A stretch of 64,000 nucleotides of DNA, taken from assembly GCA_032252755.1 (NCBI GenBank), contig JAVUPY010000011.1, forward strand, positions 1 to 64,000, given 5' to 3'. This document shows, in pieces, positions 15,969 to 57,321 of the stretch (positions are counted from its first letter, which is position 1; every line of letters begins with the position of its first letter). The stretch comes from Terriglobia bacterium (GTDB lineage: Bacteria > Acidobacteriota > Terriglobia > Terriglobales > Acidobacteriaceae). Made by a program: the position numbers and the translations under genes. The notes under the pieces were generated by a model. It made no database searches, had not been told where the DNA came from, and was given only the letters and a program-made list of their open reading frames with translations.

Positions 15969-17294
15969 CTAGTTTCCTGATCCGCCCTCGAACACCTTCG
16001 TCATCTGGAACGGTGTCATCTGGTAGAGCACATAGCTGGCACCGGAATCGGTCGTCTTTCGGAAGAGCAGTTCGGCGCGATTGTCGCCGTTTGCGTCCAC
16101 CGCGTCGATCAGATCGAGGCGTGGCGTCAGGTCGAGGTGCAGCGAATCCGTAGGCAATGCCATAAGCTGGTTGAGTTGGTCCTGCGAATTCAGGCGCGCC
16201 ACCACGGTCACGTAAAACGTCGACAGTTGTGCCCGGGGAAGTGCTTCCTGCGCGACTTTCTTGTTTCTCGATAACTGCGGAGCCTCCACCGTCGGCTCGA
16301 CACGGCCCGTGAAGATCATGTACGGGGCATTGCTGTAATCGAGATCGAACGCCTTGATGTGCGTCTCGGCGAATTTTGCATTTGTGGGAAGTGGCGTGTT
16401 GGCCTGCGTCTGCGCATACTTACGCAGCGCATCCATACCCATCCTGGTCAATTGAGCTGCCCATTTCTGCTTCTCAGAAGGCGCCATATCGTAGTCGTAG
16501 GGACGGTTGTTCATCGCCGCTGCATCGGAGATGGCGACCAGGTACTTCGCTCCCTTTTCGCCGCGCTTTGGCGCGACGAGCGCCACCGGTTCATCGTTTT
16601 GCACCGGTTGTTTTCTTACCAGGATCGGCCGGTCGGGATCATTCTCCGAGGGGTCAATGTGGCTTTTTTCGCCGGTAGCCTCGGTTATCTGTTCTTGCGG
16701 CTTGGCTCCCTCTTTCGGCTTGCGAAGAATCGGGCGATCCGTATCGTTGTCAGGCTTGAAACCGCCGTTGTCGCTGGCCTCAGTCCTGGCGCCGCTCTTC
16801 TTATCATCCGGGCTCTTACCGTCGGCGCCCGGCGCCCTCTTCAGAATCGGCCGGCCGTCATCCTTGTCTCCGGCCTTGGTCTCGGCCTTTTTGGAGCTGT
16901 CATCCGATGTGCTATTCGGCTTCCAGTCTCCGATGCCCCACCAGACGGCACCGTCGGGAATCTGCTGCGCGGTATGCACAATGAACTTACCCACCGGCAT
17001 GCCATCGGAGAGAGCGATGTATTCCGTCTGGTCATAGAGCGACATGGGAACGGGCTTGGCGTAATAGAAGCGCGCGTCGTAATACTGGCCGTCGTGGTAA
17101 ATGCTGACGGGAAAGAGCCGTGTGGTCCCGTTCGGGAGTTGCTCGACGACGCCCAAAGCGCGCAGCGAAGTCTTCTTATCGATGGAACTCGAGGCGTACT
17201 GGGCGTGGCTCGGTACCGCGAGGGTGAGTTCCGCCAAAAATATTACGGCGAGGAAATTCCGTATCCACATGCGCCGTTTAAAGCCAACTCGCAT
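15969..17294 (-). CDS. Secreted protein with repeated RPIL motifs and a C-terminal FG-GAP-like loop
   Basis: About 441 residues from the ATG at 17294, or 433 from 17270, with a signal peptide (MWIRNFLAVIFLAELTLAV to SHAQ). An N-terminal domain contains LFPVSIYHDGQYYDARFYY. A low-complexity middle carries three spaced copies of a (D/G)RPIL(K/R/V) motif in Lys/Asp/Pro-rich linkers. The C-terminal part ends with DAVDANGDNRAELLFRK, resembling a calcium-binding FG-GAP loop, and SYVLYQMTPFQMTKVFEG. I cannot name the function. The start is only 13-37 bp from the divergent peroxiredoxin gene. Confidence 0.65.
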   Translation of the reverse strand: MRVGFKRRMWIRNFLAVIFLAELTLAVPSHAQYASSSIDKKTSLRALGVVEQLPNGTTRLFPVSIYHDGQYYDARFYYAKPVPMSLYDQTEYIALSDGMPVGKFIVHTAQQIPDGAVWWGIGDWKPNSTSDDSSKKAETKAGDKDDGRPILKRAPGADGKSPDDKKSGARTEASDNGGFKPDNDTDRPILRKPKEGAKPQEQITEATGEKSHIDPSENDPDRPILVRKQPVQNDEPVALVAPKRGEKGAKYLVAISDAAAMNNRPYDYDMAPSEKQKWAAQLTRMGMDALRKYAQTQANTPLPTNAKFAETHIKAFDLDYSNAPYMIFTGRVEPTVEAPQLSRNKKVAQEALPRAQLSTFYVTVVARLNSQDQLNQLMALPTDSLHLDLTPRLDLIDAVDANGDNRAELLFRKTTDSGASYVLYQMTPFQMTKVFEGGSGN

Positions 17295-17300
17295 TAGAAT
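17295..17300 (+). promoter_or_regulatory. -10 box directly before the selenoprotein bcp gene
   Basis: TAGAAT ends 7 nt before the ATG at 17308; no clear -35 at 17 bp. Leaderless transcription is suggested. The box lies immediately next to the start of the divergent gene (17294). Confidence 0.3.
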
Positions 17301-17307
17301 CTTCCGC

Positions 17308-17769
17308 ATGAAAGTTAAAGACAAAGCCCCTGAATTCAGTCTACCGGATGAGAATGGGAACACGGTGGAATTGAAGCAGTTTCGCGGCAAACCCGTCGTC
17401 CTGTTCTTCTACCCAAAAGCCAATACACCCGGTTGAACGATAGAAGCGTGCGGGTTCCGCGACGCATACAGCAAACTCACTCGGGCGGGTGTAACCGTGC
17501 TCGGCATTTCCGCCGACACCCCCTCGGCCCAGAAGAAGTTCAAAGAGAAGTACGAGCTGCCCTACACACTCCTTGCCGATAAGGATAAAACAGTTGCCAA
17601 ACAGTTTGATGTGATCAAAGAGAAGAACATGTATGGCAAAAAGGTGATGGGCATCGCGAGAACGACGTTTTTGATCGGCCCAGACGGCAAAATCGTCCAC
17701 ATTTTCGAGAACGTCAAACCCGATGGCCACGCCGAAGAGGTGCTGGCGGAGATCAAAGCCTCAAAGTAG
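17308..17769 (+). CDS. bcp: Bcp-type peroxiredoxin with selenocysteine at the peroxidatic position
   Basis: 153 residues read through an in-frame TGA at 17434-17436 (codon 43). The frame before and after the TGA is one uninterrupted Bcp/PrxQ protein: FSLPDENGNTVELKQFRGK and VVLFFYPKANTPG, then Sec, then TIEACGFRDAYSKL, and later GIARTTFLIGPDGKI. The TGA sits exactly where family members have the peroxidatic Cys (TPGCT), and Cys48, five residues on, is the resolving Cys. A stem-loop at 17446-17465 fits a bacterial SECIS. The protein should reduce peroxides through a selenenylsulfide. A TAGAAT box ends 7 nt before the ATG, and no ribosome site is seen. The alternative of a nonsense mutation is less likely given codon position and hairpin. 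Confidence 0.88.
17446..17465 (+). other. Candidate bacterial SECIS element of bcp
   Basis: GCGU and GCGG (17446-17453) pair with CCGC and ACGC (17457-17460, 17462-17465), with one bulged G at 17461 and a GUU apical loop at 17454-17456. The loop G is preceded by 17 nt after the UGA at 17434-17436, inside the range known for bacterial SECIS hairpins, which also need a G at the start of the loop. It lies within the coding sequence, as required in bacteria. Confidence 0.75.
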
Positions 17770-56280: not shown

Positions 56281-57321
56281 ATGACCGACAAACGAGTGCG
56301 CCTGACCGAACAGGTCAAGGCGGCCGGTTGAGCTAGCAAGCTAAGTCCGGCGGTGCTGGACTCGGTGCTTGGGAAATTAGCCCGGCAACAGGACGCGAAT
56401 GTGCTGGTTGGCTTCGACAAAGCCGACGACGCTGGCGTGTACCTCATCGCGCCCAACCTCGCCTTGGTTCAGACTGTCGATTTCTTTACGCCAATCGTGG
56501 ACGATCCCTACACCTTCGGGCAGGTCGCCGCAGTCAATGCGCTGAGCGACGTTTACGCGATGGGCGGCAAGCCCGTCTCCGCACTCGCAATGGTCTGCTT
56601 CCCCGAGAAAGGCGATTTCGAAATTCTTGAGCAGATCCTCGCCGGGGGGCTCAGCAAGATGGTCGAGGCCAGTTGCACCGTCATTGGCGGCCACTCCATC
56701 CGCGATCCAGAAATCAAGTTCGGCTATGCCGTCACCGGCACCATCGACCCCAATCGGATCATGGCCAACTCTGGCGCGCGTCCCGGAGACCGCCTCATCC
56801 TCACCAAGCCTCTCGGCACCGGCGTAATCTCCACGGCCATCAAGCAGGGCAAAGCGGCGTCGGAGTGGATCGCATCTGCAACCGCATCGATGACGACGCT
56901 GAACAAGCACGCCTCGGAAATCGCGCTCAAATACGATGTCCACGGCATGACCGACATCACCGGCTTCGGCCTCATCGGCCACGCCCGCGAACTCGCGCTG
57001 GCGTCTGGGGTAAGCCTGGAAATTGAAAGTCGCGAACTCCCCGTCCTTCCTGGCGCGCTCGAAGCCATCCGCGCCGGTTTCATCCCCGGCGGCCTGAACG
57101 CCAACCGCGACTTCGCCGAATGTGTTGTTGCTGGGAAGGAAAGAATTTCCCGCGATCTATGGACGCTGCTCTTCGATCCGCAGACCGCCGGCGGTTTACT
57201 GATCTCGGTGACCGAAAGTGATTGCGAGAGGCTGGTGAGCGAGCTTCAGAATGGTGGAGTCAAAGCGACGGCCATTGGCAGGGTTCTGCCCGAAGGCAAG
57301 CCGTTAATCAAGGTCGTCTGA
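56281..57321 (+). CDS. selD: Selenophosphate synthetase, itself a selenoprotein (Sec17)
   Basis: 346 residues including an in-frame TGA at 56329-56331 (codon 17). Before it, 16 codons from the ATG at 56281; after it, the frame is open to the stop. The sequence reads VKAAG, Sec, ASKLSP, so Sec17 and Lys20 match the E. coli Cys17 and Lys20 exactly. The rest shows GFDKADDAGVYLIAPNLALV, DPYTFGQVAAVNALSDVYAM and GGHSIRDPEIKFGYAVTGTI. It makes selenophosphate from selenide and ATP. A SECIS hairpin lies at 56344-56362. A TAAAAT box 6 nt before the ATG with no Shine-Dalgarno suggests a leaderless mRNA. Confidence 0.92.
56344..56362 (+). other. Candidate bacterial SECIS element of selD
   Basis: AGUCCGGC pairs with GCUGGACU (8 bp, one G-U) around a GGU apical loop at 56352-56354. 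The loop G starts 20 nt after the UGA, in the known range, and is part of the codons for VLDS-type residues that follow. It fits the bSECIS shape as well as the bcp one. Confidence 0.78.

Follow-up and report, generated by a model that had tools for sequence, protein, structure and literature searches.

A Bcp/PrxQ peroxiredoxin gene of a probable acidobacterium with a predicted selenocysteine at the peroxidatic position

Does a TGA codon within an otherwise ordinary gene end the protein, or does it encode an amino acid, and if so which one? The question is raised by a gene of the Bcp/PrxQ family at positions 17308-17769, forward strand, of the window (the whole 64-kb stretch of DNA analysed here). 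A single TGA, at 17434-17436, is in frame both with the ATG at 17308 and with the terminal TAG at 17767-17769. It is the only in-frame stop before that TAG, and the frame is intact on either side of it. If the TGA is read as selenocysteine (Sec, U), the gene encodes 153 residues, and codon 43 becomes the peroxidatic residue of a TPGUT motif, surrounded by PKANTPGUTIEACGFRD. An earlier note on this DNA had proposed just this: a Bcp frame broken by one TGA, with homology continuing unshifted on both sides. The readthrough product bears this out. The note had also claimed that the resolving Cys is kept five residues later; a Cys is indeed present there (C48, codon TGC at 17449-17451), and it is the sole Cys of the protein, but its resolving role is presumed. 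As the note expected of automatic annotation, the listing of open reading frames divides the gene into two pieces in its frame, 17101-17436 and 17497-17769.

The predicted product as a whole fits this family. It scores 150.1 bits against Pfam PF00578 (AhpC-TSA; cut-off 26) and 170.7 bits against NCBIfam PRK09437.1, the Cys-type thioredoxin-dependent thiol peroxidase (cut-off 140). The latter is the only NCBIfam model passed; the PrxU model NF040737 stays below its cut-off, at 52.8 bits against 270. An AlphaFold2 model based on 29 aligned sequences has a mean pLDDT of 93.7 and places residues 43 and 48 in the same helix, 41-59. Its best matches in the PDB are Bcp/PrxQ structures. Xanthomonas PrxQ, of which the PDB contains a C84S mutant, has its resolving Cys at position 84. 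P36, T40 and position 43 of the PxxxTxxC/U motif, along with R118, which we take to be the catalytic Arg, are invariant among the 29 sequences. The role of this motif is given in the part of PMC13188914 that we cite. Purifying selection acts on the portion of the gene 3' of the TGA: of eight comparisons, two have a saturated dS, and the other six give dN/dS values of 0.06, 0.09, 0.11, 0.11, 0.12 and 0.14.

If codon 43 encodes selenocysteine, its relatives should pair U with C at this column. We examined the codon in two sets of orthologues. The first set consists of 100 genomes (our own and 99 relatives), of which 90 contain a usable orthologue; the ten without a clear full-length orthologue (G007, G016, G056, G061, G064, G066, G068, G072, G073 and G082) were omitted. 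Codon 43 is TGA in 42 of the 90, TGC in 41 and TGT in seven. The second set, drawn from named genome contigs, consists of 80 loci, the best among at least 571 relatives, and here the codon is TGA in 15, TGC in 63 and TGT in two. The titles of these best 80 of at least 571 refer to Acidobacteriota taxa in all but two cases (Nitrospira, Nitrospirae), the nearest named relatives among them being Acidobacteriaceae and Acidobacteriota MAGs, which makes the host of the window gene a probable acidobacterium. Eight of the 80 were duplicates of loci already included; with these removed, 162 non-redundant genes remain. Across these 162 genes codon 43 is TGA in 54, TGC in 99 and TGT in nine, and nothing else; that is, the 54 TGAs are set against 108 Cys codons at the position that the note had assigned to the catalytic Cys of TPGCT. 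Moreover, the only in-frame stops anywhere in codons 5-147 are those 54 TGAs, every one of them at codon 43.

The gene downstream of bcp, presumably a 3-methyladenine-DNA glycosylase, has a homologue in 9/15 TGA loci and 42/65 Cys loci, each locus reaching at most 3 kb each way. Since this neighbour is common to TGA and Cys loci, it supports their orthology. Acidobacteriota at large seldom have the Sec form: in a spread sample of 60 genomes, 40 have a match at E <= 1e-30, and among these 40 only two best matches contain a TGA, at any position, namely that of our own genome and a distant one in G123. More remote peroxiredoxin-like matches, at 35-47% identity and with an in-frame TGA somewhere, also occur in G075, G080, G081, G088, G089, G095, G096 and G098; one such match in G089 has a TAG in addition to the TGA. 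A tree of the orthologues, built by a brief search over 149 columns and containing many unresolved forks, requires 15 changes between Sec and Cys, at least five of them forced by starred branches, and gives no direction for them. Because the rows are related, sign tests were made on the starred branches; these offer only five independent U/C pairs, and the tests are underpowered and not significant.

We turn next to the RNA that follows the codon. A hairpin of eight base pairs with one bulged base occupies 17446-17465 on the forward strand, 10-29 nt downstream of the UGA. Its 5' arm (17446-17453) contains codon 48, its 3' arm (17457-17465) includes the one unpaired base, and its apical loop, GUU, lies at 17454-17456. 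The stem-loop described in the earlier note, with a loop starting with G 17 nt past the TGA, is thus found as described. Folding of the 47 nt at 17434-17480, which the note had suggested as a check, does produce the hairpin; equally good folds arise in 26/200 dinucleotide shuffles of this segment, as compared with 7/200 for 36 nt and 91/200 for 63 nt, while the 20-nt hairpin core is matched by 92/2000 synonymous-codon shuffles. Taken by itself, then, the hairpin in this one sequence is modestly better than chance. Since such single-sequence tests are weak, we place the weight instead on the comparison with Cys orthologues, on synonymous shuffles of the whole set, and on silent sites.

By comparison with Cys-type genes the hairpin is clearly associated with the TGA. 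The complete 8-bp form with one bulge occurs in 35/54 Sec genes versus 1/108 Cys genes, the GUU loop in 51/54 versus 26/108, and a minimum-free-energy fold with a G within the first two loop bases and a loop 14-37 nt past the codon in 51/54 versus 32/108. The note's question of whether the hairpin is conserved with the codon is accordingly answered in favour of the association, but not without exception, for the strict form is incomplete in 19/54 TGA genes, and the first loop base is not G in 3/54. Relative to synonymous shuffles, the stability of the core has a mean z of -1.84 in Sec genes and -0.23 in Cys genes, with 20/54 and 5/108 single genes, respectively, falling under p 0.05.

The same association is visible in the choice of codons. 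Gly49 is GGG in 37/38 Sec genes versus 8/66 Cys genes, against a use of GGG at the other Gly positions of these genes of 80/530 (Sec) and 145/957 (Cys). Ala47 is GCG in 42/52 versus 10/98, and Ala53 is GCA in 29/41 versus 1/14; for Phe50 (TTC) and Arg51 (CGC) no difference in codon choice between Sec and Cys genes is present in the 162-gene set. The loop-closing pair in Sec genes is G-C in 38, A-U in 11, A-C in three, G-U in none and another pair in two. Its two sides covary in Sec genes (Fisher p 6e-9), as opposed to Cys genes (p 0.66). When the hairpin constraint is corrected for the tree, only five independent Sec/Cys pairs on supported branches are available, and the result is not significant. 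Two TGA loci at 40-42% identity, L106 and L107, were retained whereas Cys-type or stop-free matches at 43% (G007, G016) were not; without the two, 88 genomes contain 40 TGA and 48 Cys codons, and in the merged set C48 is found in 26/52 Sec genes, the complete hairpin in 33/52, GGG at Gly49 in 37/38 and GCG at Ala47 in 40/50.

The comparison with Cys orthologues thus makes a strong case that the hairpin is a bSECIS element, and we predict that it binds SelB. A search of the 64-kb window with Rfam gave no match at gathering thresholds. One TGA orthologue, L071 in genome G053, has a hairpin without the outer stem and with a loop that begins with C, in a genome that contains selA, selB and tRNA-Sec; an atypical SECIS and a recent change from Cys to Sec are both possible readings of this locus.

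The genome that contains the window encodes selB (380.9 bits), selA (563.2 bits) and selD (374.7 bits), each over its cut-off, as well as a tRNA-Sec with anticodon TCA (65.8 bits, over cut-off). The tRNA-Sec lies on another contig, and ARAGORN finds no tRNA in the 64-kb window. All of selA, selB and selC, whose absence the note would have counted against its reading, are therefore found, with selD in addition. The selD gene, for the selenophosphate synthetase that supplies the selenium donor, is in the window itself, at 56281-57321 on the forward strand, and carries a TGA of its own at codon 17 (56329-56331). This codon aligns with C17 of PDB 3u0o, which we take to be catalytic, and it is followed by a hairpin with a GGU loop starting 20 nt past the TGA. 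Thus, selD is probably a second selenoprotein gene in the window. The ORF listing places its start too late. Elsewhere in the genome, two formate dehydrogenase alpha genes over cut-off contain one in-frame TGA each (C16:39502-42660 and C91:24520-27525).

Among the 90 genomes with an orthologue, with tRNA-Sec counted from 58 bits upwards, 41/42 TGA genomes contain two or all three of selA, selB and tRNA-Sec, and 36/42 contain all three. The sole exception, G071, is 73% complete; all three fall below threshold, selA being represented by a piece at a contig end whose score of 261.5 falls short of the cut-off, 267.9. Of the 48 Cys genomes, 27 have at least two of the three, one has one and 20 have none; the 27 indicate that Cys forms occur alongside the Sec machinery as well. 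In G079, two selA and two selB genes exceed the cut-off (contigs C197, C183 and C17), and on C197 selA, selB and tRNA-Sec adjoin one another.

How else might the TGA be explained? A young pseudogene, or a sequencing error, would likewise present a single stop in a normal-looking bcp, and one might suppose a nonsense mutation in a gene formerly of the Cys type. Such an event would not account for a TGA that is the sole premature stop, always at codon 43, in 54/162 orthologues, nor for purifying selection past the TGA or a constraint on silent sites and hairpin that tracks the TGA; the recurrence of the identical codon in dozens of independently assembled genomes argues against error in particular. 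We regard this explanation as very improbable, and we give just as little credence to the idea that TGA stands for an ordinary amino acid here, by a reassigned code or a suppressor tRNA. The frame is, of course, open as soon as TGA is taken as sense, but the genome encodes release factor 2 (prfB, over cut-off), and TGA therefore serves as an ordinary stop as well. Of 51 ORFs of 150 aa or longer, picked automatically in the window by a crude filter that includes shadow ORFs, nine terminate in TGA. Furthermore, the non-stop TGAs that we see are confined to the Cys/Sec codons of known Sec families (the present gene, selD and the formate dehydrogenases), and the tRNA that we found with a TCA anticodon is tRNA-Sec. 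Given the dN/dS values, the 54 shared TGAs, prfB and the TGA-ending ORFs, we reject pseudogene, sequencing error and code reassignment alike.

A further alternative grants the insertion of Sec but sees in the UGA mainly a selenium-dependent switch, by which only a truncated product would be made under selenium shortage. At every UGA, Sec insertion has termination as a competitor. The strong selection on the full protein, however, makes it unlikely that this is the main function of the codon, and no sequence feature suggesting a separate regulatory use came to light in passing. The intact gene, the U/C column, the constraint at the RNA level and the machinery genes together point instead to a functional selenoprotein, a Bcp/PrxQ peroxiredoxin with Sec predicted at the peroxidatic position. 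From the comparative evidence of these sequences we consider this conclusion very nearly certain; it is also what the earlier note had proposed, and the codon-43 column, the association of the hairpin and the sel genes all speak for it.

Under the selenoprotein reading, SelB and Sec-tRNA(Sec) would decode the UGA at 17434-17436, aided by the hairpin downstream. The steps that follow are modelled on the chemistry of PrxQ. Sec43 would attack H2O2 or an organic hydroperoxide and become a selenenic acid; Cys48, which shares a helix with Sec43 in the model, would resolve it into a selenenylsulfide once the site has unfolded locally; and Sec43 would be regenerated by a reductant of the thioredoxin type.

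The resolving step may not be shared by all relatives. Cys48 is kept in 26/54 Sec genes versus 105/108 Cys genes; that is, it is absent from 28/54 versus 3/108, and 18 of those 28 Sec genes have no Cys at all within residues 1 to about 151. With Cys48 absent from so many Sec forms, many of these relatives may be one-Sec peroxidases. Counted by rows (90 genes, the rows being related), the loss of Cys48 is associated with Sec at a Fisher p of 9e-7; on independent tree pairs the association is not significant. By parsimony, the state of C48 changes five times in Sec rows, whose branch lengths sum to 19.5, and twice in Cys rows, where the sum is 27.5.

In the Sec genes Cys48 is replaced by Ser in 12 (TCC or AGC), Arg in 12 (CGC), Asn in three and Ile in one. 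Codon 48 is part of the stem, and the register of the bulge follows it (24 for TGC, 23 for TCC, 25 for CGC), so that the stem often persists; rows with AGC, AAC or ATC match none of the three registers. The one Cys gene of 108 with a complete hairpin, L064 in genome G028, is a TGT type whose genome also encodes selA, selB and tRNA-Sec. It may represent a recent change from Sec to Cys with a relic SECIS; its three nearest rows in the tree are Cys types, and the tree is silent on direction. We tentatively suggest, with rather less than even confidence, that Sec relaxes the need for a resolving Cys, so that Sec-Bcp lineages would repeatedly become one-Sec peroxidases, and that the SECIS stem overlapping codon 48 would channel the replacements towards Ser (TCC) and Arg (CGC) by moves of the bulge. 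The clade would then amount to a natural experiment in Sec/Cys exchange, with L064 as a possible relic.

Since ORF calling splits genes of this type, a whole peroxide-defence enzyme, and with it the selenium dependence of a lineage, can escape notice. The clade, in which 54 orthologues are of the Sec and 108 of the Cys type, offers a means of testing why some lineages keep selenocysteine and others lose it, and whether Sec makes the resolving Cys dispensable. The Sec-Bcp type itself is known; it is the exchange of Sec and Cys, together with the loss of Cys48 across the clade, that is worth following.

Sec in the TxxU motif of COG1225/Bcp is, according to the parts of the literature cited here, an already established selenoprotein family, to which the window gene adds a member. 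PMC9312934 places the peroxiredoxin COG1225 (Bcp), TxxU, before the families headed 'Predicted', as does PMC13188914 (as PF00578, TxxU), and both cite the Eubacterium acidaminophilum enzyme (Sohling 2001) for Sec-Prx. The passages concerned report 43 COG1225 Sec-Prx sequences from the Sargasso Sea (PMC1088965), 253 Prx TxxU selenoproteins from ocean sampling (PMC2398784), and five Cys-to-Sec changes in Prx, along with Acidobacteria having four selenoproteins of three families (PMC1794560). For the acidobacterium Occallatibacter riparius, three known selenoprotein genes are recorded in the cited part of PMC12013277. In the open-access literature we found no account of the present Acidobacteriota group or of the loss of the resolving Cys in Sec-Bcp, which is weak evidence of absence, all the more since PMC1794560 already records selenoproteins in Acidobacteria.

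Compared with these systems, the hairpin resembles known bSECIS elements in lying directly downstream of the UGA, within the coding region, and in its small apical loop with a G, the position just past the UGA and the small G-containing loop being features described in the relevant part of PMC1088965; it differs in that the bulge of the window-type 8-bp stem occupies one of three registers as codon 48 varies. The protein shares with the Sec-Prx of COG1225 its COG and Pfam family and the predicted Sec in TxxU at the peroxidatic position, but it comes from a different lineage, and it passes the Cys-type model PRK09437.1 while falling short of the PrxU model NF040737. Its fold is that of the Cys-type Bcp/PrxQ enzymes, the model having TM-scores of 0.89-0.94 to PDB 5enu, 5iiz and 3gkn chain A, with 38-42% identity in the structural alignment; what would set it apart from them is the Sec at the peroxidatic site, with C48 as its only Cys.
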